Of a stretch of 64,000 bases of DNA, positions 321-62,129 are shown piece after piece. A model generated the notes under the pieces. That model saw nothing but the letters and a program-made list of their open reading frames with translations. It was not told the origin of the DNA and ran no database searches. The position numbers were made by a program, and so were the translations under genes. Source of the stretch: Combretum micranthum (Eukaryota > Streptophyta > Magnoliopsida > Myrtales > Combretaceae); assembly GCA_024138025.1 (NCBI GenBank), contig JAMXBD010000024.1:434001-498000 (forward strand). Reading direction: 5' to 3'. Numbering within the stretch: the stretch's first letter is position 1; every line of letters begins with the position of its first letter.

Positions 321-3300
321 ACACAAATACACTTTCTAATAATCTCCAAAACATTAACATATCCTATATAACTCACAAAGATATTTCATGAAAATAAATT
401 CATCCTATGTTTTCGCTCCTTCCACAAGAGTTCAAAGATTGGCCAATGATTTCGATCCTCGAATGTAACCACAACATACTTGTTTCATCAAAACCTATGG
501 GGTTGTAAGCTTACAACGAGCATACTGAGATATTCCTTTTTATTTACACATGATTTCAAACAAGTTTATTAACTTTCATGCATATGATATGCACACTATG
601 CAACAATCACATGATTACACAAATATATATGGTTATCCGAAACCATATATAGAACAAATTTACCCTTCTGTATCAAGGGTAATAGAAAGGTAATTGAAGG
701 TCTTTGTGATCTTCTATTGCTAATCCTCGAGTACTCTACTCATAGCAATCAATCAACTCGACTCATCCTTGGATTGTATCCCTAGTATGCCTTAGTTTCC
801 TAAGAATGAGCATGGCTTTGGACTATCTTGCTTTCGGACCTTATGATTCTTCATGCAAGAGTAGCAACTTTCGACATGTGACTCAACAGATGCAATGCAT
901 GTCCATTTAATTTATATCAAATTTGAGTATGATTAAGGTATACTTAAGGGCGATCAAACAAACATCATACACACATAAGCAATATATTAATGATATACTT
1001 GCACAATCATTTATGGGTTTGATATACTTAGTATTAATTGTCACACATACATAAGAGCATATACATATAAACCCATACCCAATGCATGTTCATTTTTTCT
1101 TGTACCTATAGATCTAGTGCAACTATCTACAAGCATAAGCAAGGTAATGAAATTAAGAGGGAAAACTCACTCGTCCACATCGCAATGTTCTTAGTCGTAG
1201 TAATCCTCAAGAATGGGAGTCTCGTATTTCTTATCATCTAGATAAAAAGAAATACCCGAAATGAGTATTTCATAGATGTTCTACTCAAACTTTCTAATTC
1301 TATTTTGTTATTTTTATCAAAATTCAGATTATGTGAAACTTTAACTTAAAATGGTCATAACTTGCTCACTTTAACTCTGAATTTTGCATATAGGATGTCG
1401 TTTTCTACTAAATTGAAACGATCTATCTAGTTTTAATGTTATTTTGAACATTTAAAGTCATTTAGGTTCGCAAACGGGTCGGTACAATTCTAACACGAAA
1501 ATTCCAGCCTCAAATTGTAATTTTTCTAAATTCTATTTCATCCAAAAATTCCATAACAAATATGTAAATATTTATATAGTTGAAAAATCCTTTTAATATA
1601 TACTTATGTCCATATTATATGCATGATTCCAGTGATGTTATCTCAAAAATAAAAATTTGTAAACAATAGTTATGAAACATAGAGTTTTGGCAAAAGGTTA
1701 TCCTTTGACTTGTGATTACATTGCCGTTTTGTAAATATATGACTCAACAAGTAAGTCATAATGCAATATATATATCTTAAATTTTAAAGGTCTTATAGTT
1801 TTTCAAAATTCTTATTTAATTTTTTATTTTATAAAATATGGTTTTACCTACTTGTGGCATAAAACCCAAGTGTATTTCCCCTTTTTAAAGAATTTCCTAA
1901 CTTTAACATTTTAAACAAAACAATAGTCCTTAGATTTTGTAAATAGGAAACTCGATTTAGAGAAAATCATTGTTTTATATTTATTTTGAGTTAATGAATA
2001 CTTTATTTTCATATCAATCTTCTTTCAACTAATTACTTTCCAAAAAGACGAATCTTTATATGGTTGTGAGGAAAAATCATTCTAAGTTGTATAAGGAAAA
2101 TCTTTTAAGTCATAAGTGAAAAATTAAGTGAATGACTTGTTCTAAACTTTCATACTTTTAATATTTCTTTCTCAATTAGAGATTTTTCAACACATGAGCC
2201 TTTACAGGTTATTGGAAAACTCTTTAGTTTGTTACAAGTGAGTGTCTAATTATTACAACTATTATTTTCATAAAAAGAAAATGAATTTACTTCTTAATGC
2301 TTAGATCATTAAGTTGTATACCAATTTTATTTCTAAGTGGACTTTAACTAGCGAGTTGATATTAGCTTGACTTGAAAAACTTGTCTAGTTCTTAGTTCTT
2401 ATTAAATTATTAGTGATGATCTTATAAGTAAGTTTTTGTGAAAAAATTTGCATAACAAAGGATACCTTAAGGTTTGATAATATGTTTTTAATTTAACGGA
2501 TGAAAAAAGAGAGTGTAATGAACTACTTAGTTGAATCTTGAAGAAGTCTATAATATTAATACCTCAAAAATTCATGATGAACTCATCTAGATTTTTTAAA
2601 ACAATTTTGTTGAAATAAAATTTCTAAGTCTTTAATGGAAAATCTTTTCTAAGTGATAAAACTTATTTTTTATGGTAAGCTTAGTCTTATTTTCTTTATT
2701 AAAGAGAGAACTCATTTTATCAAGACAACAACACTAGGGCCATCTATGAATATGAACTTATAGCTAAGTAATATGAATAAAAAAATAATTCATATTAAGA
2801 TAAAAGACATAGAATTAAAATGAGCACATAATAAAAGTCAAGTATTTGAAAGTCTTAACTTGCATCAAGGCTTTTTAGACTTAGACATGGGCAAGTCCAT
2901 AATGAAAATAAGAAAACAAAAGAAAAATTATTTTGGCTTAATGAGGATAACTCTAAGACTAAAAAGACTAGTCTTAATGAAATTGCATAAAATAAATAAA
3001 TAAATTACAAAGCATGTATAAATAAAAGTTATGTTAGTGAGCTTATATGTTCTAAGAAATATATTTATATTTAATAACATATATGAGTTAGATTATATGC
3101 AAGAATAATATAGTATGACATCATAGTAATACAATAATAAAATTTTGCATGAACAAGAACAAAACATGAACGTACTGTTGCCTTCTTAACTCCCATGGGT
3201 ATAGAAAACATACATTATTGTCAGGTTAAGTTGCATGAACATAAAAAATATCTATAGGGATTTTTACCTAATGTAGAGAAATGGGTGGTAGAAAAAAAGG

Positions 3301-4561
3301 GGGTTGATGTTGTATGGAGATAGCAAGAATATGGAAAGATAAGAGACTTGGAAAGAAATTTTAGAGAGAACATTTAAAGGGTGAATTTGAGAGAGTTTTG
3401 TCTGAGAGAGTTTTGTTATGGTAAAGAAGTATGTAAAAGAAATAGAGGAAGAGGGAGAACTTATAAATAAACATGGGGGGAATTAGATGTAATTAAATAA
3501 ATTGAAAAAGAAAGAAATTAAACAAAGTAAAGAGAAAGGGGTGGATGGCAAGGAGAAAAAAGGAGAGTGAAGATGTGATAAAAATTAATTTTAGTAAAGA
3601 AAAGTAAGTAAAATGTAAGAGAAGTTAAGTAAAAATAAGAAATAGGTATAGAGATTGTAAGAAGTAGGTAGTAAAAAAAAGTAGAGAGAGATGAATAGTA
3701 ATGAATAGTAGAAATAATACAATGAAGGCAAATAAAATACCGACAGTAATAAAAATACGCATAAACGGACTATACCAAATATTTTTAGATTTAAAAAAAT
3801 TCTAAAATTGATATTTTTAGAATCCTCATATTATTAAGAGTCTAACAGTATTATCATAATATTTTTACTATCTTGAGTCCCATGATACGTTTTTCGAGAA
3901 CTGATCTCGTTCGAGTTTGAAATAATCAAATTTTTTACGAAGCTGATATTTTTACGTTTCCTAATATTATTATGGATTACAATCTATGATTATCTCAATT
4001 TTATTACTCTCGGGCTAAGAGTATGGGATTGCCAGATCTAGTCTCACTAAGGCTTATTGTTAGCCTATTTGACTTTTAGGAATCCAATTTTATTCTAGCT
4101 TTAAGATTTATTCACAAGATTATAAAATTTTTAGATTTATGAATATTTTATATTTTTTATTCAAAATTTAAGTTTTTACTTTATTTTTTTATGATTTATT
4201 TAGTTTTTAACAATTCTTAGGATTGTTTAGTGGAGTCTAGGGTTATGGGTTTATTATGTTTGATTTTTGGTGTTAATTGAAAATTTTTATTCTAAAATTC
4301 ATCGAAAGGTTTAAGGTTTTAGTATTTTATCGTTGAGTATTATTTATATATATCGTCTCGATTTACATATTAGGCATCAGATAGTGGAATTATTTCACAT
4401 ACAGATTTTGAATCAAACAGTTATTTGATTTTCCATTTTATTTTTGAAGGTCCTCTCTTTCTCAAGGTTAAGAAATTTTGTATTTGATCTTGTTTAGAAT
4501 TTGGTTTTAACTTTGGTAGGTTTTTAAGGTTTCAATATCGGTATTTAACTCTAAGATTATT
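321..4561 (-). mobile_element. Family-A LTR copy A1, truncated at both ends
   Basis: Read on the minus strand, this follows the order of family-A landmarks: terminal AT-rich block (4561 to about 3780), TATA-like region near 3465, leader, long intron-like stretch, conserved TTAAA..TTTAA box near 1350, mini-exon at 1191-1237, variable module and hairpin region (about 600-900). The 3' end is cut off by the family-B LTR at 1-320. The 5' terminus is lost where A2 begins at 4562. It is closest to A11 (39298-43578). No coding capacity is seen apart from the 14-codon mini-ORF. Confidence 0.8.
1191..1235 (-). other. 14-codon conserved mini-ORF in LTR A1
   Basis: Directly after an acceptor-like CTAG, in the same phase as in all other copies, the minus strand reads DKKYETPILEDYYD then TAA. 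A GTGAGT donor-like site follows near 1171. The ending EDYYD-stop is the family consensus. No start codon is in this exon, so it would be the C-terminal end of a spliced frame, or not translated. Confidence 0.6.
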
Positions 4562-5591: not shown

Positions 5592-6974
5592 CCACATCTT
5601 CCTTCTATTTCCTTCACACCTTTCATACACTACAATTACTCTCTCAAAATCTCTCCAAAAGCTCTCTCAAAATTTCTCTAGTTTCCACTTCTTCTATAGG
5701 TAATAGTTTAAGCTTTCTATATGTTCATTTACTTAGTATGAGCATACTGTGTGTTTTCTAAACTCATGGAGGTTAAGAAAGCAACAATATGTTCATTTCT
5801 TTTGGGACTAGTCTAATCTTAGTCCAGGGAAACCTTGAAGAAGTTAAGGCTCCCAATACTTATAATTATTATTATGCTTATTTATTTCTTATGTTCTTTA
5901 TTACCTTATCTTATGATATTTTTAGCTTTTATAAACTACATGATCATATTCATGCATGGATAATAAGTTGCTGTCCGAATAAGAAAATGAATCTTTTGAT
6001 GAAAGAATAAAATTTGATCAAAGTTTTCTAAATACTTAGAAAAATATTTTCAAATAAATCTCTTTTGAAAGTTTATGTAAAACTCATCATGAAATTTCAA
6101 ACTATTAATAAATGAAGTTTCTTTAAAGTTTAAAGATATCTCCTTTTCAAATAACAAAAGAAGTCTTGATATATAGATAATAACTTGGTACTATTTTTAT
6201 CAACATTCTAAACCAAAAGCTAAATAAGTTTTCAAGAAAATCAATTTACAAGGAAAATGAATTTTCAAATAATAAACTCATCAAGTACTGTAAACCCCCA
6301 AAGTTTTGTGATCGTTTAGCTTAAACCTTAAATGGAAAGTCAACCAAAAGTCCTAAAGTCAACAAAACCCTAATTAGATGTAATGGTTTAAGTCCGACAA
6401 TCCTATGTTGGAAATACTAAGAAAGTTAGAATGAGATGAGTATGTAGAATAGTTTGTAATTGTATAAGGAAGCTTAAAAAGATCATATTAATAAAATTGC
6501 AAATCGTTTTGAATCAGAACGGATACGGTTCTTGAAAAACGTGTCCTAAGGCTTGGAATAGTAAAAATATTTCGGATATATCATTACACTCGTAAAAATA
6601 TAAGGTTTTTAAAACTATCAGTTTTATAATTTTTCAGTAAGTAAAAATAACAGATATTGCAATTATATGCATGTTTTCTTACTATCGGTACTTTATTAGC
6701 CATATCTACTTTACATTACACTATTCTTTTATCTCTATTTTTTCTAACACCAACTCTTAAAACACCATAACCTAGTATCTTTACTTTTTACCTTTCCCAT
6801 AACTTTATTTCACATCTACCTTACTTATTGCTATACTTAATCAACAAAAAATACAAAATAAAAATTCTCTCTTCCCTCTCTCAAGATGTGGCCGACGCAC
6901 CGTCCTTGTCCCTCTCTCTCATTTTATTTCAATTTTTCTTTATTTAAATCACAAAAAATTCACTCCTCATATCC

Positions 6975-6982
6975 TATAAATA
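6975..6982 (+). promoter_or_regulatory. TATA box of LTR A4
   Basis: tataaata followed by the C/T-rich leader; same relative position as in the other family-A LTRs. Confidence 0.65.
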
Positions 6983-8623
6983 CCCGCCTCCTCTTTCACT
7001 TCTTTCACACAATTACTACCCACAAATTCATTACCAAATCTCTCTCAAATTGTCCTCTCAACACTCTCTCCAAATACTTTGTCAAAATATTCTCCAACCC
7101 CCTTCTACATACACAAAACCCATTCACACATATTATCTCAAAACACCCTTTAGGTAAAAATTTCCTTTACCAAATTCTTCTTCTCATGTCATGTAACTTT
7201 ACATGACCATGGTGTGAGTTTTCAAAAACTAAATGTTATAAAAGCTACACTATGTTCATGTATTGTTCTTGTTCATTAATATCTATTTATTTATTTATGT
7301 TCTTACTTTACTTTGTTCATATTATTATTGTTATTATACCTAACTAAGTATTATTATGTATCTACATATATATATTCTTTAGAGCATATAAGCTCACTTG
7401 CAGTTTATTTATTTTCATGTAAAGTAATTTATTTATTTCTTCCATTGCAATTTATTTATTTCTTGTTGTTTTAAAACTAGTCTCTAGTCTTAGACTTATC
7501 CTTATCAAGTCAAAACAATTTTCTTTCTTTTATTTTCTTTCTTTCTTTTTGGGACTAGTCTACTTTTTAGTCCCAAAAGCCTTAAAGAAGTTAAGACTCC
7601 CAATACTTGACTTTATTTATTATTTATGTTATTTTTGCTTGTTATTATTTCTCATAATCATGCCCATTAAGATTGTTGTCCAAATTTTTAAAGCTCTAAT
7701 TATACTTTGACAAAAATGAGATTTTATCACCTAAGAATGGTTTTATATGAAATATAAATTCTATGGTTTAATAAAAGTAAAGTTATTCTTTTCCAAGTTT
7801 TAAGAAAAACTCACTACAATTTTAAAAATCACTTTTTTTTAAAAGTTTTTTAAATCATTTTTATATTATTTTTTTCTTAAAAGAAGATGACTTTGGTATT
7901 AAAATATTTTTTTTATAAAAACATGATATAAGGAAACCCTTTAAAACGAAAATGAGAGTTCTCAATACCAAGATTTTTCAAATAAATAATCAAAGAAAAC
8001 AAATAGGAAAAGTAGTACTGATGTTGAGAATTTAGAAAAGAAGAAATTTATCTTATCAAAAAGTTATTTAGGAAAATAGTAAGATAAACATAAAGTGATT
8101 CTTGAAACAAAGGAATCAAAATATTCATTTTAAAGGATTTATAAAAAGGATTTCTTGTAAACTATAGTTTTCTACACTCTTAATTAACATTGTTTTACTC
8201 AAGAAATTTGAATGGACAACAAACACTTGAGCATGGATAAAATATGAGCTATATATCTATAAAAAAGGGATTTTTTTTTCAACTATATAGATAACTAAGC
8301 ATTTATCAAAGCAACTTTTGGATAGGTTAATGTTTGAAACAAATTGCTTTTGGGTTGGGAAAATTTGTAGTGAATCTGATCACCACTGTTTTGGAGCCTA
8401 AATGATCTAGTTTGATGAAAATAGTTTTAGAAATGAATAGATTTTTTCGAGTATGTAGAAATCGGTATATTATATGCACGATTCCTAGTTAAAATGACCA
8501 AGTTATGGCCATTTTAAATTGAAATTCTCTCTTATACGAACTTTGATGTTCTTATGTCATAGTTTTGTCAAATTTCAAGAAAGTCATCCAGAAATACTCA
8601 TTTTGGGTATTTTTCTTGATTAG

Positions 8624-8721
8624 GTGATTCTGAGGAAGAATACCCGTACCCCGAAGATTATTTCGACTAAGTAGATTCTTTGAACAACTCATCCGCTTAG
8701 AAGAAGTGTCGACATGGCAAC
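8624..8721 (+). other. Exon-like segment with 14-codon mini-ORF, LTR A4
   Basis: The segment is bounded by acceptor-like TTGATTAG (ending 8623) and donor-like GTGAGT (from 8722). In the phase shared by all copies (two bases, GT, then codons) positions 8626-8670 read DSEEEYPYPEDYFD and TAA. Length, phase and the EDYFD-stop ending match the other copies. No in-frame ATG lies within the segment. Confidence 0.6.
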
Positions 8722-10875
8722 GTGAGTTTATTTCCTTAAAAAAGCTTTACTTGTTTGTGATTGTAATTTAGTCACATTAGAATTAAGGAAAGATAAATTG
8801 ATATGTGTGTGAAAATTGTTGAAAGTACTATAAGAATATCGAGACAAGAATTGATTGTAAGCAATTGTTTGTTTTAGTATAGTATTTGATATGCATGAAA
8901 TTTTATGATCACCTTAAAATTGTTAATAATGATTATATGATAATTTGAATAAATTGATTCATGCATACCACCAAATGAGTCACATTGAATGGGGTTATTA
9001 TCCTTGGGTGAGAAGGATGGCAGCTCGGTCGAAAGCAACACTTGGCGGTTATGATCGAAAGCGGTTGCTTAACAACATGGAATTAAATGCTTAGCGGAAG
9101 TCCGGAAGCACAGCTCAAATCGAGTAGACTTATTATGCTTGGTGGTATTGATCGAAAGCATAATTTATCTAAAACTACTCGTTTTGAGGTTACGTATCAC
9201 CAAACCCCAAATGGAGGGCATAAGTCCATTCAATATATAGTTGCATTTGATTGCTTAAATAACTTGTTTGAATTTCACTACACAATAAGTTTACTTATGG
9301 AAATAATTCTCACTAAGCCTATTAGCTTATACCCGTATATATATCTTTTGTAATTTACCTATTTATGGTTGGGACTACATGGACCCTGCAACTAGGTATT
9401 TCCTTTTTGATTAAGGAATTTGTAGATGAAGTTTAGTGTTGGATAAGATGTAGACTTCATATGAATTTCCTTGTAATAGATTATAGTTAATTGAGCTGAG
9501 GAATGACCCTAAGACCTATAAGACTATTGTTATAACTAAATAAATATTATGAATCCTCTTTTCTTAAGTTGTTATTGTATCTTCTTAAGCTTCATAATTC
9601 CATATATGGTCCTATAAAATTGTGAAAGCACGCCTTACACTTAATATCGAAGCTTCTAGGATTAACTAAGGTTGTCATACTTAAGCTTTAATATTGAGTG
9701 TAGCAGACTGTTACGTTTAGGTTACCCCTTGGGACATGACAAGTACTACTAAGGAAAATTTTTGAAAACTCTATTTTTCAATTCCTAAAAATAAATTTTG
9801 TAGATAACCTCAAAAGACCAAACTTTATTTTGAACTCAATTTTGATAAACTAAAGAATCAAAATATAGTATATTAGATTTTGATCATCCAAAAAAAAAAA
9901 TTATAAGTTACTTCATCCACATAAAGTAAAGTCTAACAAATCCAAATTTCCAAAATACTAGGAAAGGTTGTTTTAAGGAAATAAATTAAATAGACAACAC
10001 CTATAACTTCATGCATAAATAATGAGTCTATTTATATACATAAGGAATTCTTTTAAAAAATATACATATTTGAATTTTATTTAAACAAAGCCATAGTAAA
10101 GGAAGGATTAGAAAATGTTGTTTTTCAATAAAGGAATTTTCATATTAATCTTGTACCCTTCTAATCCGAGACCCAAATGACCCTTTATAGTAAAAGTAAC
10201 CTTAGAAATGAATATATCTTTTCGAGTAGGTAAAAACGACATATAATATGCGAAATTCCAAGTTAAAATGAGCAAGTTATGGTCGTTTTAAGTTGAAACT
10301 CCCTTCAAATCCGATTTTAGCGCAAATTGAAGATAGATTTAGAATCTTCAAAATAGAAATTCTATGAAAGACTCATTTTGGGTGTCACACCCCAACGGGT
10401 ACCCTAAACGTGACAGTCCGCCACACTCAATATTAAAGCTTAAGTATGACAACCTTAGTCATTTCCTAAAGCTTTTATATTAAGTGTAAGGCTTACTTTC
10501 ACAATTTTAGAGGACCATATATGGAATAATGAAGCTTAAGGAGATATAAAAAAATATTAAGAAAAGAGGATTCACAATAACTATTTGTTCATAAAAGCCG
10601 TGCATTCTTAGGAACAATTCCCTAATTTACTAAGCTATAATTTCGTGCTAATACTATGATGTACTTTATACAGAGTTCTAATATTCAAAAGGGATTACCT
10701 GCCCACATGGTCCACGTGGCCTTAGCCATAAGTACGGAAACTGCAAAAGGTAGCTATCGGGGTATAAGCTAATAGGCTTAGTGAGAACTATTTCTATAAA
10801 TAACTTCTTGTAACAAGATTCAAACAAGTTGGTTAAGCACACATATGTAATGCATCAAACACGTGGGCAAACAAT

Positions 10876-11150: not shown

Positions 11151-11507
11151 TGAGCCTACTATCCTTCTCACCCAAGGATAATAACCCAACCATGTAATGT
11201 GACTCACTTCGTGGTATGCATGAGTTCATTAATTTATAAAGTCATAACATAATTATTTTCAACTTTATGGTGATCAAGGAATTTCACACAAATCAATATT
11301 ATACTAAAACAATCACTTAGAACAATTCGGGCTTCGATATTCTTAGAATTCTTTCAAGGAATTATTTTACATGCATATCGGTTTATCTTTTCCTAACTCT
11401 AGTGCAACTAATTTACAAGCACAACAAGTGTAGCATTTAATGGAAATAAACTCACGATGCCATTGTCGTCTATTCCTCTAAGCGGATGAGTCGTTCACAC
11501 ACTCCAC

Positions 11508-11550
11508 TTAATCGTATAATTTCTGGGTGAAGAAATCCTTCCTCGGGGTC
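11508..11550 (-). pseudogene. Frameshifted 14-codon mini-ORF, LTR A5
   Basis: The minus strand starts in the usual phase (DPEEGFLHPE) but is 43 nt rather than 45 up to the family stop position. A 2-nt loss therefore breaks the frame before the conserved end. A GTGAGT donor-like site follows. Confidence 0.55.
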
Positions 11551-13331
11551 ACCTAACCAAAGAAAATACCCACAATGAGTTTTTCTTGAAGATTTTCTTG
11601 AATTTTGACAAAACAATGTCAAAGAACGTCAAAGTTCGTATAGAAGAATGTTCCAACTTAAAATGGCCATAACTTGGTCATTTTAACTCGGAATCGCGCA
11701 TATAATATACCGATTTCTATCTACTCGAAAAGATCTACCCATTTCTAAAATTATTTCCCACAAACAAAGCCATATAGGCTCCGAAAAAGTTGACAAAATT
11801 CACCACGGATTTTCAAGTAAAAACAACTTTGGTTCAAGAAATCAAAATTTGTTTGATAAATACTTAGTTATCTATATAGTTGAAAAATTCTCTTTTTATA
11901 ACTATATAACTCATATTTAAGCATGCTCAAGTGTTTGTTGTCCAAATTATTTTTCTTAAGTAAAACAATGTCGGTTGAAGCTTTTCGGAAATTGTTTTTG
12001 TAATTTCTTTGAAATGAATACCTTGTTTTCTTTATTTTCTAAAAACGTTTTATGTTGGTTTTATTTATCTTTTCTAAGTGACTTTTGAAAATAAAATTTC
12101 TACTTTCTAAGTTACACTAATAATATTTTTGAATTTTTCTAGAAAATATCTTTTCTTCATTTTCTTGTGTAAATTCCTTGTTTACTTGTTTTGGCAAAAA
12201 TCTTTACTTGATATTTCTCATTCTTTTTCTCATGTCTCCTATTTCAAAACAATTACCATGCATGAAAATTTGGTTTCCTTATAAAAACAAAGTGGAACAA
12301 TTAAGGACTTTTTGTAGAAAAACTAATTTCTATAATTTATTATTTTCTTGTAACTTGAAAAGAAATAACTTTATTATTTTCAAACCAAATTTTCTTTGCC
12401 TATTTGTTTGCAAAGGTCTTTTTAAAATTTCCTTAGTCATCCATCTTATTTCTTTCTTTATGAAAAGAACCATTTTTGTCAACAAAATATTTTCTTTTGA
12501 AAACAAGGTAGAGAAAAGATTTAATAGTAAGTAAAAATAGTTTCTAAATTCATAGTGAATTCTTTTTGTAACTTGAAAATGAATGAGTTTATTTTTGTTA
12601 TCTTATATTTTTATGTTTCACAATTTATTCTAAGTGACAAAAAGTCTTCTTTTATTTCATTATCTTTAGAAAATAAACTTTTGGACAACAATCTAAATGA
12701 ACATGATTATGAGAATAATAATAAACAAAATAACATAAAGCATAAATAATAAAATCAAGTATTGGAGTCTTAGCTTTTTCAAGGCTCCCGGGACTAAGAA
12801 ATAAACTAGTCCCATAATAAAATAAAATGAAAGAAAAGCTTGTTTTGACTTGATGAGGACAAGTCTAAGACTAGAGACTAGTCTTAAAAACAACTTGAAA
12901 TAAATAAATTGCATTGAAGTAAATAAATTGCATGAAAGGTAAATAAATTGCAAGATTATGAGCTTATATGCTCTAAAGAATATGTATATAGTTATATAGA
13001 TATAGTAGATAGTTATGAACATAAAAGAAACATAAATGAACATAAGAGGAACATAAATAATATAAGGAAACATGAACAAGAGGAATTATGATTATGAACA
13101 AAAACAAAGTATGAACCTATTGTTGCTTTCTTAACCTTCATGGTTTTAGAAAACACACACTAAGCTCATACTAAGTAGATGAACATGGAGACTTCTTGAA
13201 GAACTTTTACCTAAAGAAGATGAGCTTAAAGAGAACTTCTTGAAGAGCTTCTTGGAGAGAAATTCTAGAGAGATTTTGAGAGAGTAATTTTAGTGTAGAA
13301 GTGGTGTGAAAGAAGTGAAAGAGGAGGGGGG

Positions 13332-13339: not shown

Positions 13340-14072
13340 GGATTTTAAGGAGTGATTTTTGTGTAATTAAAATAAAAGAAAATTAAAACAAATTGAGGGA
13401 GGAGAGAGAGGGTGTAGCACCGGCCATATGTGTAGAGGGGGAGTGTGATTTATTTTTTTTTGACTTTTTGTTAAATAAAAAATGTAATTTGTAAGGTAGA
13501 TGTGATATAAAGTTATGGGAAAGGTAAAAAGTTAAGATTATAGGTTATGTAGAGTGTAAGAGTAGGTGTAAGAAAAAGTAGAGATAAAAGAATAGTGTAG
13601 AATAGTAATAAATAGTGTAATGTAAAGTAGATATGACAATTAAAGTACCGGTAGTAAGAAAATACGCGTATAATAGCTATATCTGTTATTTTTACTTACC
13701 GAAAAATTATGAAACTGATATTTTTGGAAAACTTATATTTTTACGAGTCTAACGGTATATTCGGAATATTTTTACTATTCCAGGCTTTTGGACACGTTTT
13801 TCGAGAACTGTGTCCGATCGGGTTCGAAGAACACCCAAATTTCGCGAAACTGAAACTTTTATAAAACCTATGGTTATTACGGACTATTCGAGCTAATTAT
13901 CCCGACTTCTTTTTTCCGGGCCAAAGAAAACGGCAATGCCGGATTTAGGTTGATACGGTAAACTAGGGTTTTGTTGACCTTTAGGGTTTCGTTTGACTTC
14001 CGGTTAGGATTTTATGCTAAACCGATTCCAAAATTTTAGGGGTTTACATTGGGTATTTCATCTTGTTTAGGT

Positions 14073-14132
14073 GAAGAAGGAACCGATATCGCCTTCTCGG
14101 AAGATTATTTCAACAAGAAGTTATCATCATGG
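14073..14132 (+). other. Exon-like segment of LTR A3, stop position lost
   Basis: After TTGTTTAG (ending 14070) the shared phase reads EEGTDIAFSEDYFN and continues KKLSSW up to a GTGAGT donor-like site at 14133. The EDYF core is kept but the family stop codon has become a sense codon. Confidence 0.5.
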
Positions 14133-15415
14133 GTGAGTTAATCCCTTACTAATTACATTTTCTTGATTGTGCTTATAAGTAGTAGCACTAGAGAGTAAGG
14201 AAAAGATAAATGGATTCATGATTGAATGATGTGATTGTTGAATAAAAGCTAAGCATATCAAAAGAGAAACCGATGAATAACTTATGTTTTCTTACTATGG
14301 TATGATGAATATTGTTTTGGTCACCTTTAACTTGAACTTGACAATAATTGAATAAACCATTATTAAAAACGATTCATGCATAACATATTGTGAGTCACAT
14401 TTATTTTTTGCTACTATTCTTCGTGTGGGGAAACGAGGAGTCATAGTGGTGGCTAGTAGGAGCCGGAAAGTCTACAAAGCAAGTAGGAGCCAGTAAGTCT
14501 GTAACTATCGATGATCGTATGGGTCGGTAACCACCCAACCCCTGACATGGAGGGCGTAAAATCCCTGCTACACATGGTTTCCGGTTAATCATGTGTAATT
14601 TATTTGCTCATGTGATTGATGCGTTCCCATATGATTGTCTAAAATACTTATATGTTTTATGGGATTGTTTTGAACATGGGAGTTATCTCACTAAGCTAGT
14701 TTTGCTTATACCCCTATAGTGTTTTGTTACAGTTTGATTACTTATGGTTGGCACCAAGGAGCCCTTTTTGTCAGGTATGAGCCAAAGCTACTAGGAGTTT
14801 TTGGAAGAAGTTTATATAATTAGTTTTGGATATAAACTTTTAAGAGAAATCTCTATAGTAGACTTATGTTATATTCATGTATGTTTTGAAGATGGCTTAG
14901 TTTGATGTAAGTCTTTAGAACGAGGGAATGCCCCTAAGAAGGTGTAAGAAACTTTTATCTTAATGATTATTACCAATTTATCTTTATAAGTTCTTGCATG
15001 CTTTTATTATCTGCTTAAACACAATACCCCTTTGAGTCTCCTACTATCTTGGAAGCACGCCTTGCACGTGATATCAAAGCTCTTGTATGACTAAGGTTGT
15101 CATTCATTAGCTCTAATATTATGTGCAGCGGACTGCCATGTTATGGATACCCTCCGGGGCGTTACAGTCTATGCCTAATATCTAGGTCCCGACTTCTCTA
15201 AAAAGCTCATTAGTTTCCAAAAGAAAGCTACATCTGAGAAAAGTGGCCTCTTGGGGATAGCCATAAATGATCATGTTGCAATAAGAAACTATATGGGTAT
15301 AAGCTTACGGGCTTAGTGAGATTCACTTCCAAATTTAAATACTCAATCAAGCAATAAGGCAAGCAAGTTATATTAGACAATCATATGAAATGCACAAGCA
15401 TGTGAGCATACAATA

Positions 15416-15465: not shown

Positions 15466-15986
15466 AGGGTTAGGTGTTTTAGGCCATTACGACCATAGAT
15501 TTCAATTTTTCTCTCATTTATTTAGTGGTTTTTTCAAGTGCCGACACACTCATTAATTATGTAGTTGATTCAATAGCCTACTTTACTTCTATTTAAATTT
15601 AGGCGATCCCGCACCGATAACCGAGTTTTCATTCCCATCCGTTGACTAGCTATTATGCCTTTTTCCCACAAAGGTATAACAACGAATGTAATGTGACTCA
15701 ATATATGTTATACATGGATAAGTTAGTTATATGATCATGGCATAATATTTAAGCAAATTATAGGCGATCATGGAGATTTCAGACACTTCAATTCTATACT
15801 AAATCATACAAATATTTATAACAATTCCCATTTTGATATTATTATCATCAATTCAACCAAGTAGAATTCTCATGCACATTCCAATTTTATCTTGTCCTAA
15901 TTCTAATGCCACTATCATTACAAGCAAAGTCATAAGCATGTAATTTAAAGAAAGTGAACTCATTTTGCCATAGCACGAAATTCCTC

Positions 15987-16031
15987 CTAATCGTAATAAT
16001 CCTTGGGAAGGTCTAGTCCGTCTCCCAAGTC
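15987..16031 (-). other. 14-codon conserved mini-ORF, LTR A2
   Basis: After an acceptor-like GCTAG the minus strand reads DLGDGLDLPKDYYD then TAG, in the same phase and of the same length as the other copies. The donor-like site is ATGAGT here rather than GTGAGT. Confidence 0.6.
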
Positions 16032-18371
16032 ATCTAGCAAAGGAAATACCTCTAATGAGTATTTTTATGAAGTTTAAATGAAACTTATTAATTCCATTCT
16101 AACAAGTTCGTCAAAGTTCGCCTAGGAAGAAATTACAACTTAAAATGGCCATAACTTGGTCATTTTAACTCAGAATTTCACATATTATCTACCGATTTCT
16201 ACCTATTCAACGAGAGCTATCCATTTCTAAAGTTATTTTCATCATATAAAGTCATTTGAATCATGAAAAGTAAGGTATAGAATGTTACAGGAAATTCCCG
16301 CCCACAAATTAAGTTTTAAATTCACATCAAACATCATCCAAAAGCTTTGATAGATACTTAGCTATCAATATACCTTGAAAAACCTTTTTATATACATATA
16401 TAACTCAATATCATGCATGATTCATGTGTTGATGATCAATCTATTTCATTATGTATTCAAACAATGTTTTGTGAAGTTTGCAAGACATTAATTTCCCAAG
16501 CTTGGTTTTTGAAAAATTTCCAAGTAAACCATGATTTCTTTAAAAGATTATTACTTATGCTCATTCTATTATTTTACTCTTAGAGTTTATAAAAAAAATT
16601 ATCTTTCATATAATAACTTGTTTTTATTATTAATCTCTTAAATATTCCCTAGATGGCTTCTATATCCATTGTTCTAGCCTTGAAAAAATTCACTTATTTC
16701 TTGAAAGTGTTTTACAAGAGTTCTTAGCCTTAATCTTCTTAAGAAAATTTTGTAGAATCAAGGATCATTATTTTCAAGTCTTGAGAATAAAAATCCTATA
16801 TTTATATCACTAAAGTTTGTGCAAAATTCTTTAGTTCTAACAATATTTATATGGTGTGATTTTTATGTTTGTAAAACTAAGATTTATATTTTTCCTTTGC
16901 AACTTTTAAGATCTCTTTTATTTCATTTGGAAAGACACCTCTTTTATCAAATCATATACCTTGAACTTTGTTTTAAATTTTTCCCTTAAATTTTTAAAAA
17001 TGTCGTGACCTATTTAAAGAAGAAGAAAAAAATTATTTCCTTTTTCAAAACTTGTTTCTTGAGTCATCCTCATCTTGTCTTAAAACTTGTTATTTTAGAA
17101 AAACCATTTGTGACCTTTATAAGATCAAGATCATAATCTCATCTCTAAGTTTTTCAAAAACTTTCTTTGTTAAATTTCTAGATTTAATCATTTTCTTAAG
17201 ATCAAAGTTTTTGGTTAAGAACCTAGTCTCATTTTTGGCATTATAACATTTTGTCTATGAATCATTTATGTTTATGAGCATAAATAGAAAATAAGAAGAG
17301 AGGAGCAAAGTATATGTATAGCATAAAGTAGGTCAAGTATTGGGAGAACTAAGCTCCCGGGATATGGAAAAGTTTCTATCCTAAAAGAAAAAGAAAGAAA
17401 GAAAAAGTGCATAAATGTAGATATTGAAAGCAACAATATAAAAGCAAGTATAATAACAATATGAGCATAAAGAAAAAGCAATATATAGGCAAGTTATAGC
17501 AAGATATAGTTAGCAAGATATGTATATAGCAAGATTATGGCAAGATATATATATGAGTATGATGGTAGTTCCATGAACATGAAAACATGATCATAATGTT
17601 GTTTCTTTAGCTTTTCAACCTAAGAAACAACACGAAAAGCCATGTAAGGCTATTTGACATGGAAGATGTAAGCCCCTAGATTTTTCGATAATATTAGCAA
17701 ACCCTAAGAACCGGAAGTTGAAACGAAACCCTAAGATTAACCTAGTTCTATGTTTAATCTAGCGAATCTAGATCCGGCACTCCCGTATTCTTAAACCCTA
17801 GAAAACGAAATTGAGATAATTGTGGAAAATCGTTCGTAATTATATAGGAAAGCCTAAAAATATCATATTCGAATTTTTCTAGTGTCTTTCGGATCCGATC
17901 GGGATCAGTTTTCGAAAACTGTGCCCTAGAGCACTGGATAGCAAAAATATTCCGACAACACCAATAGACTCGTAAAAATATAAGGTTTTCAAAAATATCA
18001 GTTTTAGAATTTTTCGGTAACTAAAAATATCAGATATAGCTTAATTACGTATTTTCGTTACTACCGGTATTTTAATTATCTAGTCTCCTATTCATAGTAC
18101 TTTTCTACTATTCATTACTATTCACCCATCTCTACTTTTTCTTATACTCTATTCTTACACTCTACCATACCTATATCTTATAATTTACCTTTCCCATACA
18201 ACTTTAATCACATCATACCTTACATATTACTTCTTTTAATACAGAACAAACAAAAATAATTATTTCTCCCCCTCTATACACTCAAAACCGGCGCCCCTTT
18301 TGTCCCTCTTCCATCCATTTTATTTCCAATTTCAATTAAATTTAATCACACAAATTTCCACTCCAAAAATC

Positions 18372-18379: not shown

Positions 18380-19766
18380 CCCCCTTCCTCTTCCATTTCT
18401 TCACACAACAAAAATTCATACTAAAACTCTCTCAAAATCACACCACAAAATTCCTCTCCCAAAACCTCTCTCAAGTCTCTTCTTTTCTTTAGAAAACCAA
18501 GTCCCACATAATACAACAACCCATTCTTTTCTTCTTCAACAAACCCATAAGCTTTAGGTAAAAGTTTCTCATATTCTCTCCTCATGTTCATATAACTCAA
18601 CATGAGTTTAGTGTATGTTTCTTAGACTCAATGAGTTAAAGAAGCAACAATTTATTCATGTTTTGTTTTTGTTCATGTTCTTATTTTCTTTATGTTACTA
18701 TTATGTTATTATTGTTTCTAACCTAACTTATATAGGTATTATGTATATTTTGTATATATATTTATTTAGAGCATATAAGCTCACTTATTATTTATTTATT
18801 TTCAAGACTTGCAATTTATTTATTTACTTGTTTTATGCAAATATTAAGACTAGTCTTTCTAGTCTTAGACTTGTCCATATCAAGTCAAAACAATTTTATT
18901 TCTTTGCTTTTCTTTTCTTTGAGGACTAGTCCATTCTTAGTCCCGGGATACCTTGATGAAGCTAAGGTTCCCAATACTTGAATTTACTTTTATGCTCTTA
19001 CTTCATTTATGTTGTTTTTATATTTCTCATAGTCAAAAACTCTCATTCATACATGAATATGTTGTTATTGTCTCAATCATAATAGAAATGAGTTTTCTTA
19101 AAATAAGAATAAGAACTCTTTTTAAATATAAATTTTGTCACATAAGAAGTTATTGTAAACCCCTAAATTATAGGAATCGGTTTAGCATAAAACCCTAAAC
19201 CGGAAGTCAAACGAAACCCTAAAGGTCAACAAAACCCTAGTTTACCGTATCTAGCTAAATCCGGCATTGCCGTTTTCTTTGGTCCTAAAAAACGAAGTTG
19301 GGATAATTAGCTCGAATAGTTCGTAATAACCATAGGTTTTATAAAAGTTTCAGTTTCGCGGAATTCGGGTGTCCTTCGAACCCGATCGGACACAGTTCTT
19401 GAAAAACGTGTCCGGAAGCTCGGACTATAGCTATTATACGCGTATTTTCTTACTACCGGTACTTTAATTGTCATATCTACTTTACATTACACTATTCATT
19501 ACTATTCTACACTATTCTTTTATCTCTACTTTTTCTTACACCTACTCTTACACTCTACATAACCTATAATCTTAACTTTTTACCTTTCCCATAACTTTAT
19601 ATCACATCTACCTTACAAATTACATCTTTTATTTTCCAAAAAGTCAAAAAATTAAATCACCCTCCCCCTCATCACACCATGGTCGGCGCCCCATCTCTCT
19701 CTTCCCTCTCAAATTGTTTTAATTTTGCATTTATTTTAATCACACAAAAATCACTCCTCAAAATCC

Positions 19767-19774
19767 TATAAATA
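19767..19774 (+). promoter_or_regulatory. TATA box of LTR A7
   Basis: tataaata followed by a C-run and a leader rich in 'ctctctcaaa' words; no ATG occurs between it and the donor-like site at 19959. Confidence 0.65.
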
Positions 19775-21453
19775 CCCCCCTCCTCTTTCACTTCTTTCAC
19801 ACATTCACTACCCACAAATTCTTACCAAAACTCTCTCAAATTTTCCTCTCAAAGCTCTCTCAAATTACTATCTCAAAACTCTCTCAAAATAATTCCACAA
19901 TAACTTCCACCAACAACAAAAACCCATAACCACATAACCATATCAAAGTCTTCTTTAGGTAACCCTTTTATAATTCTTTCTTCTTCTTCATGTCATGTAA
20001 CTTTACATGACCATAGTGTAAGTTTCCAAATACTACAAGTTGTGGAAACTACATTATGTTCATGTATTGTTCTTGTTCATGCCAATCCATTTATGTTTAT
20101 GTTGATTTATTATTGTTTATATATCTATACATATTCTTTAGAGCATATAAGCTCACTTGCAATTTATTTATTTCATGCAAAGCAATTTATTTACTTTTCC
20201 ATTGCAATTTATTTATTTATTCCTTGTTGAAATAAGACCAGTCTCTAGTCTTAGACTTGTCCTCATCAAGTCAAAACAAGCTTTTCTTCTTTCATTTTGT
20301 TTCATTATGGGACTAGTTTATTTCTCAGTCCCGGGAGCCTTGAAAAAGCTAAGACTCCAATACTTGACTTTATTATTTATGCTTTATGTTATTTTGTTTA
20401 TTGTTATTCTCATAATCATGTTCATTTAGATTGTTGTCCAAAAGTTTTATTTTCTAAAGATAATTAAATAAAAGAAGGTTTTTTGTCACTTAGAAATAAG
20501 TTTATGTAAAGTATAAAATCAACACAAAATAAACTCATTTCTTTTCATGTTACCAAAAAGAACTCACTATAATTTTATAAACTACTTTTGCTTTGAAAAG
20601 ATACTAAAATCTTTATTATCCCACCTTGTTTTTCAAAAGGAGATATTTTTGTTAAAATGGTTTTTTTTTCATAAGAAAGAAAATAAGATGGATGACTTAG
20701 GAGATTTTTAAGTAAAGACCTTTGCAAACTAATAAGCAAAGAAAAATTTATAGTTTGAAAATAATAAAGATATTTCTTTTCAAGTTACAAGAAGAAGTTA
20801 ATAAGATTATAGAAATTAGTTTTTCTACAAAAAGTCTTTAATTGTTGTTTTTATGAAGAAAACAAATTTTCATGCATGGATGATTATTTTTAAAAATGAG
20901 AAAAAGAATGAGAAATATCAAGTAAGGAATTTTTGCAAAACAAGTAAACAAAGGAATTTACACAAGAAAAATGAAGAATAGCATATTTTCTAAGAAAACT
21001 TCAAATATAGTATTAATGTAACTTAGAAAGTGGAAAATTTTATTTTCAAAAGTCACTTAGAAAAAGATAAATAAAACCAACATAAAACGTTTTTAGAAAA
21101 TAAAAGAAAACAAGGTATTCATTTCAAGGAAATTTACAAAAACAATTTCCGAAAAGCTTCAACCCAACATTGTTTTACCTAAGAAAAATAATTGGACAAC
21201 AAGACACTTGAGCATGCTTAAATATGAGTTATATAGTTATAAAAAGAGAATTTTTCAACTATATAGATAACTAAGTATTTATCAAACAAATTTTGATTTC
21301 TTGAACCAAAGTTGTTTTTACTTGGAAATCCATGGTGAATTTTGTCGCCACTTTTTCGGAGCCTATATGGCTGTGTTTGTGGGAAATAATTTTAGAAATG
21401 GGTAGATCTTTTCGAGTAGATAGAAATCGGTATATTATATGCGCGATTCCGAG

Positions 21454-21482
21454 TTAAAATGACCAAGTTATGGCCATTTTAA
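21454..21482 (+). other. Conserved inverted-repeat box (hairpin 3) of LTR A7
   Basis: TTAAAATGACC and GGCCATTTTAA form an 11-bp imperfect stem (one mismatch) around AAGTTAT. This is the most conserved stretch of family A and occurs in nearly every copy about 100-200 bp before the mini-exon. Its role is unknown. Confidence 0.55.
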
Positions 21483-21589
21483 GCTGGAACATTCTTCTAT
21501 ACGAACTTTAACGTTCTTTGACATTGTTTTGTCAAAATTCAAGAAAATCTTCAAGAAAAACTCATTGTGGGTATTTTCTTTGGATAGGT

Positions 21590-21633
21590 GACCCGAGGAA
21601 GGATTCCTTTACCCCGAGAACCATTACGATTAA
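21590..21633 (+). pseudogene. Mini-ORF of LTR A7 with one base lost
   Basis: The segment after acceptor-like TAG (ending 21587) is 44 nt rather than 45. Past the missing base the frame reads EEGFLYPENHYD then TAA. The partner copy A5 keeps an extra C at the corresponding early position, which locates the loss. Confidence 0.55.
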
Positions 21634-22023
21634 GTGGAGCGTGTGAACGACTCATCCGCTTAAAGGAATAGACGGTAATGGCATCGTGAGTTAATCCCCG
21701 TTATTTTTCGTACTCTTGATTGTTCTTGTAAAATTAGTTGCACTAGAATTTAAGAAAAATCAAAAGGAAGTGTATGATAATACGTTGAAAGAATACTAAG
21801 TATATCAAAACTCGATTTGTTTGTAATAAAGTTGTATGTGAATTAATATCTTGAAATGTTTGAAATTGATTGATCACTTGAAAGAATTTAAACGTAACTA
21901 CTAGACTTTAATTAAAGAAATTATTCATGCACTTCATATGTTGAGTCACATTGCATTCGCTACTATACAATTGGTGGGACAAGTGTATAATAGTGGTGGT
22001 AGACATAACCGGTATATCATGTC

Positions 22024-22205
22024 AGTGGCGAGTAGGAGCCGGTAAGAACTACTTAAATTGATGGCTAGTAGGAGCCTGTAATAACTACAAGTTTTTGATG
22101 GTTAGTAGGAGCCTGTAATAACTACAAGTTTTTGATGGCTAGTAGGAGCCTGTAATAACTACAAGTTTTTTATGGCGTATAGGAGCCGGTAAGATCTATA
22201 AAAGT
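22024..22205 (+). repeat. 37-bp tandem repeat in the variable module of A7
   Basis: Three nearly identical 37-bp units start at 22060, 22097 and 22134, each containing GGCTAGTAGGAGCCTGTAAT or a one-base variant. They are flanked by more diverged units at 22024 and 22171. Related 'agtaggagcc' words occur in A3 near 14455-14490. Confidence 0.85.
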
Positions 22206-22249
22206 GTTTTTAAAAGTTGTGGCTGTAATTGGCCTGAATACCCAACCCC

Positions 22250-22299
22250 GAATGAAGGGCGTAAATTCATTCAACATATGATTCCCGGAAAGTCATATG
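22250..22299 (+). other. Hairpins 1 and 2 of LTR A7
   Basis: Hairpin 1: GAATGAA (22250-22256) and TTCATTC (22266-22272), loop GGGCGTAAA. Hairpin 2: CATATGA (22275-22281) and TCATATG (22293-22299), loop containing TCCCGGAA. Both stems are perfect. Compared with A5, each stem differs by substitutions on both arms that restore pairing. Confidence 0.7.
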
Positions 22300-23672
22300 T
22301 CTTGTATGCTCACGTGGTTGTTGCATTTCATACGTTTGAATAATGAACTTGATTGATAATCTACTTCGAGTATGAATTTTGGGATTTACTCACTAAGCTC
22401 ATTAGCTTATACCCCGATAGATATCTTTTGCAGTTCTCATACTTATGGTTAAGGCCACGTGGACCGTGCGGGCAGGTAATCCCTTTTGAATATTAGAAAT
22501 CTGGATAAAGTATAGCTTAGTAGTAGCATGTCAATATGTATATAATAAATTAGTAATCTAGGGAGATGTTCCTAAGTATGTAAAATCTTTGCCATTAACA
22601 AATAATTATTGTGAATCCTCTTTTCTTAATGTGTTTTTTTATCTCCTTAAGCTTCATAATTCCATGTATGGTCCTCTAAAGTTGTGAAAGTACACCTTAC
22701 ACTTAATATAAAGGCTTTTGGGAATGGCTAAGGTTGTCATACTTAAGCTTTAATATTGAGTGTGGCGGACTGTCACGTTTAGGGTACCCATTGGGGCGTG
22801 ACAGTTATTTTTCTTAAAGGTTTGAAATTTATATTAAACAAATATCCTTCTAAAGATAGTAACAATATATGGTTTTACCAAGAAATACATAAAGTAAAGT
22901 TAATATAAATTTTCTTTTCAAAATAAGAAAGTTCCTTTAGACTTAAACAAAGGATTTCTTAGAATCAATTGTCAAAGTTTTCCACCAACACTAAAGTCTA
23001 AGATAAGTTTTTCAAAAATAACTTATAAGATGATTTTTTTTAAAAGTGGAACTAACCATAAAGTATTTAGAAAGACTTTGTTTTCCAAAAATGCTAGAAA
23101 TAAATTTATGGAAATCTTGAAAGATTAAAATAACTTTTTGAAGGAATGGAGTTAAAAGGAGGAAATACTCAATTATGATAACTTAGGAAATTTTTCAAAA
23201 ATAAAATTCCTTTCAAGCCTTAAGCTTATCTCACTTTCAAGACATTTGTTTTACAAAACCATTGTTGAGACAACATCAAATTCATGCACATAGTATGAGA
23301 TTATACATATATTCAAGGGATTTTTCAATCATACTATATATCTATATTTTTGTACAAAAGCCCTTGAGTGAAGTAAAGTTTGAAAACTCTAGTTTTGAAG
23401 TTTGGAAAAATTCGTATCAAATCTGTACGCTACTATTCCGAGACCCAAATAACTTCTTTTGATGATAATAACCTTAGAAATAGATAGATCTTTTCGAATA
23501 GGTAGAAATCGGTATATTATATGCGAAGTTCCGAGTTAAAATGAGCAAGTTATGGCCATTTTAAGTTGGGATTTCCATTCCATACGATTTTACGAATTCT
23601 TTAAGATAGAAGTATAGAACTTGAATAGATCTTGGATGAAATACTCATGTTGGGTATTTCTTTTGTTTAGGT

Positions 23673-23720
23673 GTCGAGGATCACGATCTTGTCTTCCCCG
23701 AGGATTACTTCGACTCCTAG
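23673..23720 (+). other. Mini-ORF of LTR A6, one codon longer
   Basis: After TTTGTTTAG (ending 23670) the shared phase reads VEDHDLVFPEDYFDS then TAG. The usual stop position is a serine codon and the next codon is the stop. A GTGAGT donor-like site follows at 23735. Confidence 0.6.
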
Positions 23721-24257
23721 AGCGCTATGGACGAGTGAGTTTCCTTTACGCTTATGTATTCGCGCATGTGCTTGTAGAATAGAGCACTAGATGTTAGGAA
23801 AAGATAAAATTGATATGCATGTGGGATATTATGGGAATTATGTATGTGATTCGTTGTGTGCGATCAATTAAAAATAAGTATATCGGAACCCGATTTGTGA
23901 TTGATATAAATGTTTCCATGTATGTATTATTATGTGTGCAAATATTGTTTGATCGCTTTAAATGATTTAATGTCATATTGAAATCACCATATAATAAATT
24001 GCACATGCATATCACTTAGAATATCATTTCGAAGTTTTGCTACTACTCCTTAGCGTGGGACCGGAAAGGTAAGCTGCCTAGCTACATCTTGAGGTTAGGA
24101 CGTTCGGGGAATACGGCCTCAAGGTGTAGCCGAGCTGGATCGATCGCTTTGGGCATGGAAGGCCCGGGGACTAGTAGTACGGTTCGTTGGAACCCCAAGA
24201 CGCGCGCAAACTTGAGGAGGTTGTTCGAGACCTAGTTCAAAGCATTCCCTAACCACC

Positions 24258-26707: not shown

Positions 26708-27200
26708 CAGGTTATCAGATTAACGAATCCTGTGGTACGACGCTGTTTAAGCTTACGGTCAACCGAACTAAAAATTCGTTTTATGGATCACGATTAACCA
26801 ACTCATATTCGTTTAAGGACAAAGATAAACCAACTCAATAATTCGTTTAAGGACAACGATAAACCAACAAATGCTAATGCTCCATCCCCATCGTGATATG
26901 AATGGGTTCAATTTCATCTTCACTTCCGAATAATCAATTATACCAATTCTTTTAAGTGATCAATTAATAATCGCAGACAATCAATTCTAATTCATCTATA
27001 CAAGCAATAGTTAATCACTCGGCTTCGATATTCTTACATTCCATTTCACATATCAACAACAAGCATATATAGTCTCCATTCGTCCCCATCATGCATATCC
27101 ATTTTATCTTTACCAAATATCTAGTGCAACTATTATTACAATCACATACAATAAATGAAGTCGGAAGTCATACTCACTCGGCCATTGGATCACCGGTCTC

Positions 27201-27244
27201 TTAGTACAAGTAATCCGTGGTAGGGAATCGTCAATTTCGGGATC
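27201..27244 (-). pseudogene. Mini-ORF of LTR A9 with one base lost
   Basis: The minus strand starts in the usual phase (DPEIDDSLP) but is 44 nt to the family stop position; beyond the missing base it reads TDYLY then TAA. It is bounded by TTTTTAG and GTGAGT. Confidence 0.5.
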
Positions 27245-27814
27245 ACCTAAAAAAGAAGAAATACTCTAATAAGTATTTCAACTCAAACTAATCCAAACGA
27301 TTTTATACGAACTATCAAATTCGTAATTCTCGTCCTAAGTGGGAATTCCAACTTAAAATGGCCATAACTTGGTCATTTTAACTCGGAATCTCACAAATTA
27401 TATATCGATTTCTATCCACTTCGAAATATCTATCTAATTCTAATATTATATTTAAGTTTTGAAAACTTCAAAGGTTCGAAAAAGTCAGATCAGATTGGAA
27501 CAGTAGCAAGTTCTGATTCGAAAAATAGTTTTGTAATTGTTTGTAATGTTTCTACTTGACAAATCAATTATACATGCAATATGAATGATTTCCTATCATG
27601 AATGGCACGTTATGAGCTTGATGTATGCATGTTTTTGACAATATTTACTAAAAGGAATTTTAGAAACTTTTTATTTGTAAAACTCCATGGCTATTTACTT
27701 TCAAGAAAACTGGTTTCCTAACTTTGATGATTTCCATTTGTTTTGGATTTATTTCTTAAGAAAATATAATTATTTTTTTAAAATTGAGTCTTCATTATAT
27801 CTATTACTTATGAC

Positions 27815-31624: not shown

Positions 31625-31669
31625 CTAATAGTAGTAATCCGGAGACAAGAATTCTTCTGATTCAAGGTC
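31625..31669 (-). other. 14-codon conserved mini-ORF, LTR A8
   Basis: After TCGTTTAG the minus strand reads DLESEEFLSPDYYY then TAG, with standard length and phase. A GTAAGT donor-like site follows. Confidence 0.6.
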
Positions 31670-60147: not shown

Positions 60148-60153
60148 TATACT

Positions 60154-62115: not shown

Positions 62116-62129
62116 ACCCGCAACAGTGT

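Follow-up and report, generated by a model that had tools for sequence, protein, structure and literature searches.

A repeated exon-like segment in a plant LTR that may supply both the first and the last codons of a spliced element protein

Can an LTR carry coding exons and, if so, which end of a protein would they encode? The question is raised by positions 8624 to 8721 of a 64,000-nucleotide stretch of Combretum micranthum DNA (here the window, to which all coordinates refer). A preliminary description had noted there a 14-codon reading frame with a conserved acidic end, recurring behind an acceptor-like site in the copies of one repeat, family A, and had read it as the C-terminal exon of a spliced protein.

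We began with the nature of the repeat itself. The DNA of the window is of plant type, rich in A+T and full of nested LTRs, and searches with the segment as query recovered 12 copies of the exon-like unit in it. The copy that holds the segment, A4, is a solo LTR on the plus strand (6289..9741, 3453 nt) that runs from TG to CA and is flanked on both sides by the 5-bp target duplication AGTAC; A5 is likewise a complete solo LTR (19154..22803, plus strand, 3650 nt, duplication GTTAT). Perfect 5-bp duplications are found at six copies in all, the others being A3 (CCCAA), A6 (GAAGA), A10 (GTCTA) and A11 (AAAAC, in an LTR whose first bases are other than TG), and none was established for A1, A2, A7, A8, A12 or A14. 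Several copies also sit inside others, A4 and A3 in A10 and A5 in A6. Because of these perfect duplications and this nesting, family A is an LTR of about 3.45–3.8 kb (roughly 3.65 kb) with the 8624–8721 segment inside it, and the same two features argue against a host gene family in its place. In the nest at ~4560–25830, A2 (minus strand), whose own LTR ends are not settled, is apparently split by A6 (holding A5) and A10 (holding A4 and A3).

Most family-A copies look like decayed solo LTRs, all of them from this one window, and internal sequence is kept by A13 only, where it is broken; no family-A pol was seen in the window. The LTRs begin with TGTAAACCCC or similar and end in sequences such as GGGGCGTGACA; set beside the TGTCAC...GTGACA of the Tekay clade, it is 3' ends of this kind that agree. 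Rfam and tRNA scans gave no match, two sequence patterns of the family found no relatives in viral contigs, and a single match of one pattern in a bacterial MAG was taken as chance.

The segment itself, exon 2 in what follows, has the borders of an exon. In A4 its first base, 8624, directly follows TTGATTAG (acceptor-like ttgattag) and its last, 8721, directly precedes GTGAGTTT (donor gtgagttt) on the plus strand, so that the coordinates first proposed match splice-like borders to the base. Across the family, an acceptor AG precedes exon 2 in 11 of 12 copies (AC in A13) and a donor GT(G/A)AGT follows it in 11 of 12 (AT in place of GT in A2). The frame runs exactly 14 codons to a stop in seven of the 12: A4 (DSEEEYPYPEDYFD, then TAA; frame at 8626..8670, plus strand), A1 (DKKYETPILEDYYD; exon 2 at 1171..1237, minus), A2 (DLGDGLDLPKDYYD; 15964..16033, minus), A8 (DLESEEFLSPDYYY; 31605..31671, minus), A11 (DERYKITLLEDYYD; 40378..40443, minus), A12 (DFDILEDLPADYYD; 48154..48214, plus) and A13 (DVETKFLCLEDFLD; 53991..54059, plus). 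A6 (VEDHDLVFPEDYFDS; 23671..23734, plus, frame from 23673) is one codon longer, at 15 codons, and A10 (EEGTDIAFSEDYFNKK; 14071..14132, plus, frame from 14073) has lost the stop and reads ...DYFNKK. Small losses break the frame in the remaining three, by 2 nt in A3 (11456..11552, minus) and by 1 nt each in A5 (21588..21685, plus) and A7 (27178..27246, minus). TAA, TAG and TGA are all used, at one shared position. This tally agrees with the one in the preliminary description, whose copy names differ from ours for some broken copies only. Frames of the A4 type end EDYYD-stop. In each of the 12 copies exon 2 is richer in G+C than the sequence on either side (means 0.45 versus 0.31 before and 0.31 after, the upstream flank of A10 being another LTR); a G+C step between exons and introns is usual in plants.

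The pattern of change among the copies points to translation of this frame. In the nine frame-intact copies (A3, A5 and A7 were dropped from the alignment), pooled dN/dS over exon 2 was 0.48 as compared to a shuffle median of 0.81, and 2 of 5000 column shuffles gave a value as low, which bears out the coding signature that had been claimed for one phase. When each copy was left out in turn, 0–7 of 1000 shuffles were as low, and addition of A7 with its damaged codon masked gave 0.50. The other two frames gave 0.92 and 1.04; in a BLOSUM-based shuffle test, p was 0.0004 for the exon 2 frame and 0.19 and 0.83 for the others. Because the first eight codons alone are weak (dN/dS 0.72, p 0.063), the signal lies mostly in the last six (dN/dS 0.22, p 0.001). 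At the DNA level exon 2 is less conserved than the sequence around it (0.54 as compared to a mean of 0.61 in eight aligned copies), in line with the preliminary description. These data indicate that the 14-codon frame evolved under constraint at the protein level.

Could the signature be a small-sample artefact of chance and shared ancestry, with no protein made? The sample is twelve decayed copies of 42 nt only, three of them with frame-breaking losses. Moreover, when sliding windows were scored automatically with a BLOSUM-based measure and the broken copies left in, exon 2 came top among the 415 windows of its own block (z 2.50) but fourth overall, out of 1376, behind one intron-2 window (3.61) and two LTR-tail windows, at 22299 (2.59) and 22585 (2.51). 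By contrast, p < 0.01 was reached by none of the 147 windows taken as controls outside exon 2 (93 in other alignments and 54 in the most conserved LTR block), whereas in the exon 2 alignment 5 of 24 windows had p ≤ 0.005, all in the exon 2 frame. Exons 2 and 3 (the latter described below, and left out of the control-window scan by gaps in its alignment) both pass the shuffle test and have splice-like borders at their ends. We consider chance a very unlikely explanation.

Two non-coding features deserve mention beside these scans. The high-scoring intron-2 window (21935) was set aside as a coding candidate, its alignment looking like a short conserved non-coding motif. Conservation along the aligned stretch peaks, with hardly any indels, in predicted intron 1, 100–220 nt 5' of exon 2 (8405..8520 in A4, plus strand); this block is matched in 10 other copies and contains a possible hairpin, TTAAAATGACC...GGCCATTTTAA. 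Conservation of an RNA hairpin in this intron (GTTAAAATGACC...GGCCATTTTAA) was rejected, compensatory changes being found in 0 of 13 pairs.

The 3' end of exon 2 holds a second feature. An ATG lies 8 nt 5' of the donor in eight of 12 copies (A2, A3, A4, A5, A6, A7, A11 and A13), and the next base is always G; in A4 this predicted start codon is at 8714..8716 (plus strand) and in A13 the ATG is at 54052. The exceptions are A10, with the ATG at −4 after a deletion, A1, with it at −10, and A8 and A12, which have no ATG there. About 700 nt 3' of exon 2, after a conserved stretch CTCACTAAGC...GCTTATACC...ATAG, a further exon-like segment begins, exon 3. It is 55 nt long in A5 (YLLQFSYLWLRPRGPCGQ; 22421..22475, plus, acceptor cccgatag, donor gtaatccc), A3 (YLLQFPYLWLRPRGPCGQ; 10699..10753, minus), A2 (FLLQHDHLWLSPRGHFSQ; 15234..15288, minus, donor mutated), A10 (VLLQFDYLWLAPRSPFCQ; 14720..14774, plus), A13 (YLLQLSYLWLEPRGYFAL; 54781..54835, plus), the A12 counterpart (LFRFTLRPWLVTSRSMAL; 48973..49027, plus) and the decayed A4 counterpart (9341..9395, plus, acceptor AG lost, in-frame stop), and 58 nt long in A14 (FFLMQFLYLWLHPQTWLNQ; 51745..51802, plus). 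That of A6 is 54 nt with an in-frame stop, and no exon 3 could be recognised in A1, A7, A8 and A11.

Exon 3 behaves as exon 2 does. Its translation is YLLQxxYLWLxPRGxxxQ in most copies, less clearly in A12; dN/dS is 0.53 in seven copies including the divergent A12 (1 of 2000 shuffles as low) and 0.36 in six with A12 left out (0 of 2000), and the other frames give 0.87–1.59. Its G+C content is 0.43 versus 0.33 and 0.31 in the flanks (eight copies), and a donor GTA follows it in seven of the eight copies of 55–58 nt. Exon 3 is recognisable in six of the eight copies with the exon 2 ATG at −8, and in six of six a splice from exon 2 would carry that ATG into the conserved exon 3 frame, cleanly in A2, A3, A5 and A13 and with a stop in A4 and A6; the joined reading is MASYLLQFSYLWLRPRGPCGQ in A5 and MAEYLLQLSYLWLEPRGYFAL in A13. 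Another exon 3 acceptor, TTTTGCAG, was discarded, since the exon 2 ATG then misses the conserved frame, which ATAG, 13 nt upstream, reaches. The earlier view of exon 2 as a C-terminal exon without its own ATG therefore stands as a rule for the 14 codons but is incomplete as an account of the exon, in that an ATG also lies near the donor in eight of 12 copies and, in the six of these with a recognisable exon 3, leads into its frame.

These exons might nevertheless be no more than a spliced 5' leader, the acidic frame being a purine-rich splicing enhancer and the ATG with exon 3 a short uORF that regulates gag translation. The GAGGAT/GAAGAT tail of exon 2 does resemble such an enhancer, and the unspliced exon 3 frame stops a few codons past the donor in eight copies. 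An enhancer, however, needs none of the concentration of changes at third codon positions of one frame that is seen in exon 2, and exon 3 is followed by a conserved donor GTA in seven of eight copies while the downstream stop drifts in position. We regard a purely leader role as unlikely; that both LTR exons are protein-coding in source elements seems to us probable, clearly more so than the double use of exon 2 proposed below.

If the 14 codons end a protein, where would that protein start? We looked 5' of exon 2, where a TATA box and a G-poor leader (2–7% G) lie ~1.5 kb away in A4 and A5. In A4 the TATA-box-like CTATAAATA (6974..6982, plus strand) is followed by leader exon 1 (7007..7153, plus, 2% G), which has no ATG, has an estimated 5' end, placed 32 nt after the TATA start, and ends CTTTAG/GTAAAA (slash, exon border). 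The leader donor TAG/GTAA is present in eight of eight copies with a leader found; a further row, from the other side of the split in A13, was dropped from the set. Together the eight leaders (1193 nt) contain three ATGs, as compared to 10–14 per 400 nt just past the donor in seven of eight copies; 1.9 are expected from dinucleotides, and this AUG poverty comes from the low G content.

Right-frame starts are correspondingly rare. Five leaders have no ATG, and in these the exon 2 ATG near the donor is also the first ATG in exon 2; in A11 and A13 the leader ATG is in another frame and meets a stop. Only the A1 leader (3268..3433, minus strand, 5' end estimated) has an ATG in the right frame (MFSLKFLSKSL...), from which 35 codons, in phase with the 14, run to the donor without a stop. 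At least one stop stands in the right frame in five of eight leaders (A5, A11, A6, A3 and A1, in A1 before its ATG). In unspliced sequence, the frame upstream of the 14 codons closes within 2–26 codons in every one of the 12 copies, and A13 alone has an ATG in it. The upstream search for an ATG exon that the preliminary description had proposed thus gave a right-frame ATG in one leader of eight. Just 3' of the leader donor lies a partly palindromic block, CATGTCATGTAACTTTACATGACC (19990–20020 and 7186–7215), exact in three of nine aligned rows and similar in others; an ATGTCAT/GTAACT start exon (MSCD...DYYD) was considered and rejected, as it falls in this block beyond TAG/GTAA and is exact in three of nine rows.

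These counts bear on the possibility that the LTR by itself encodes a small protein with the 14 codons as its end, whose start would be an ATG or near-ATG in the leader, or an ATG exon of intron 1 that escaped us. The A1 leader fits such a protein better and keeps it alive, the phase-1 frames of the A4, A10 and A13 leaders are also without stop, and in the LTR of a Tekay-type element in the window a leader ATG would join in phase an acidic exon ending DYPADD-stop. Set against this are the seven of eight family-A leaders without a right-frame ATG, the right-frame stops in five, and the early closure of the unspliced frame in every copy. On balance we think a protein of the LTR alone rather unlikely. 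Because seven of eight leaders lack a right-frame ATG, we infer that an upstream ATG exon lies in the internal region and is used from the 3' LTR; and since leader and unspliced sequence mostly give no start, the 14 codons would as a rule be leader only in the 5' LTR. A coding exon of the internal region, spliced into the 3' LTR, would be the remaining natural source of the start. The distance from stop to donor is 14–51 nt in the eight copies with the stop at codon 15 or 16, and a downstream junction triggers mRNA decay from roughly 50–55 nt beyond a stop, so that the mRNA should escape decay even if the 3' LTR were spliced once more.

We next turned to A13, the one copy with internal sequence. 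It alone has a primer-binding-site-like sequence after its 5' LTR, TTGGTATTAAAGC (55227..55239, plus strand), 7 nt past the LTR end at 55219 and close to TTGGTATCAGAGC of the Tekay-type element. After CTTAAATAG comes a predicted next coding exon (55370..55543, plus) with 58 open codons in a phase that matches exon 3, giving the joined reading M-A-E-Y-L-L-Q...A-L/I-I-L-G-E-P-L-L.... The copy is broken past the 58 codons, and the Tekay-type element is inserted at 56535. No internal coding exon that would feed the 14 codons was seen among the window copies, because only A13 has internal sequence and that is itself broken. The internal ORF had no Pfam match, and one piece of it and a read-through found no protein relatives in a database that gave 7993 relatives of a pol piece. 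The region 55370–56527 holds acidic, partly broken ORFs, perhaps an ORF0-like extra gene.

Taken together, the sequence features lead us to propose, at close to even confidence, that exon 2 may serve twice in a spliced element protein, as last coding exon from the 3' LTR and as first coding exon from the 5' LTR. Somewhat more tentatively, we suggest that this could amount to a wrap-around gene, in which one LTR exon is both the first coding exon, with the ATG at its 3' end (5' LTR), and the last, with EDYYD-stop at its 5' end (3' LTR), so that the two protein ends would be copied as a single unit.

On this reading, the transcription, splicing and translation of a putative element protein, with a predicted internal exon feeding the 14 codons, might run as follows. 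Transcription would start past the TATA box of the 5' LTR and yield the AUG-poor, G-poor leader (exon 1), which would be spliced at TAG/GTAA to the exon 2 acceptor; with this splice the 14 codons would usually be untranslated, and the first or nearly first AUG would be that at −8 from the exon 2 donor. It would be spliced in frame to exon 3 (MAEYLLQxxYLWLxPRG...), and exon 3 in turn, past the end of the LTR and the primer-binding site, to the internal region, whose last coding exon would be spliced into exon 2 of the 3' LTR, which would give ...EDYYD-stop. The splice from exon 3 to the internal region would take out the LTR end together with the primer-binding site. RNA spliced in this way would be unable to prime reverse transcription and would serve as the mRNA; the role of template would fall to unspliced RNA, in which the site is still present. 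Counter to the double use of exon 2, the exon 2 acceptor of A13 itself is mutated and exon 3 carries stops in A4 and A6. The absence of the donor ATG from A8 and A12, its shifted position in A1 and A10, and the failure to recognise exon 3 in A1, A7, A8 and A11 count against it as well.

A single element of the window has gag and pol frames (58799–63322, minus strand). For its integrase piece 120 of 7993 relatives were listed, and the organism-named ones among the matches listed are plants except for one Corynebacterium entry. The LTR of the Tekay-type element (minus strand) has a leader ATG exon at 58092–58068 (ATGCGGAGGGGATTATTAATTAAAA/GTAAGT), with a short separate ORF before it, and a TTTCAG/GT acceptor that opens an acidic exon at 56979–56879 ending GPDYPADD-stop; joined, the two exons could encode a 41-residue peptide inside the LTR. 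This acidic exon, from a single family, suggests that LTR exons are not confined to family A.

Because LTRs are annotated as non-coding, start and end exons in long plant LTRs would be missed in annotations. If true, the double use of exon 2 would account for the length of some LTRs of > 3 kb, which would hold a promoter, a leader, two introns and coding exons. Distinct RNA pools are described for BARE in the accessible text (PMC3735527); if our model is true, splicing, by removing the primer-binding site, would set the RNA for translation apart from that for reverse transcription in an element with a single promoter. A further prediction of the model is that host genes can acquire coding exons ready-made from solo LTRs.

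How do these exons compare with known systems? To our knowledge, the precedents for LTR coding so far are contiguous or single ORFs. The retroviral proteins MMTV Sag and HIV-1 Nef are spliced and read from the 3' LTR, both as single ORFs with their own ATG, and we know of neither exon being shared with the start codon of another protein part. Family A would resemble them in having a spliced 3'-LTR protein but differs in that its exon lacks an ATG of its own as a rule; the analogy with Sag drawn in the preliminary description is good only if the A1 arrangement is original, an in-frame ATG being present in one of 12 unspliced copies (A13) and one of eight leader-spliced ones (A1). The yeast element Ty1 has its gag start codon inside the 5' LTR, where a start codon is predicted here too, but is unspliced and lacks a C-terminal exon in that part of the LTR.

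No description of a spliced LTR exon that has a start as well as a stop was found in a word-matched search of the literature, which left subscription papers outside and is no proof of absence, nor does the accessible text of PMC7730604, PMC3485330, PMC7264820, PMC6317226, PMC3059260 or PMC3605345 describe one. Splicing is described for Ogre, a plant Ty3/gypsy element in which, according to the accessible text, an intron is removed from part of the transcripts and the whole polyprotein is then translated (PMC6317226); that intron is internal, between two ORFs.

Similar in build are Retrosat2, RIRE3 and RIRE8, Tekay-clade elements of grasses whose LTRs are described as > 3 kb with the ends TGTCACACCC-GGGCGTGACA, and which carry upstream of gag-pol an extra ORF, ORF0, of unknown function that the authors found in grasses only (PMC3485330). 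Family A is like the Retrosat2 type, as far as the accessible text goes, in its LTR length of > 3 kb, its similar 3' end GGGGCGTGACA and perhaps its extra ORF ahead of gag-pol. It differs in that its internal ORF is without any match in searches, and in its LTR exons, which the main text on the Retrosat2 type does not describe ('intron' and 'exon' occur 0 times; PMC3485330).

Similar in the use of the 3' LTR are the CRM and some Reina chromoviruses, in which, as the accessible text has it, the C-terminus and the stop codon are encoded in the 3' LTR (PMC3059260, PMC3605345), just as is predicted for family A. In those elements gag-pol runs into the LTR as one frame; the family-A frame, by contrast, is closed within 2–26 codons upstream in all 12 copies and starts afresh at an acceptor-like site.
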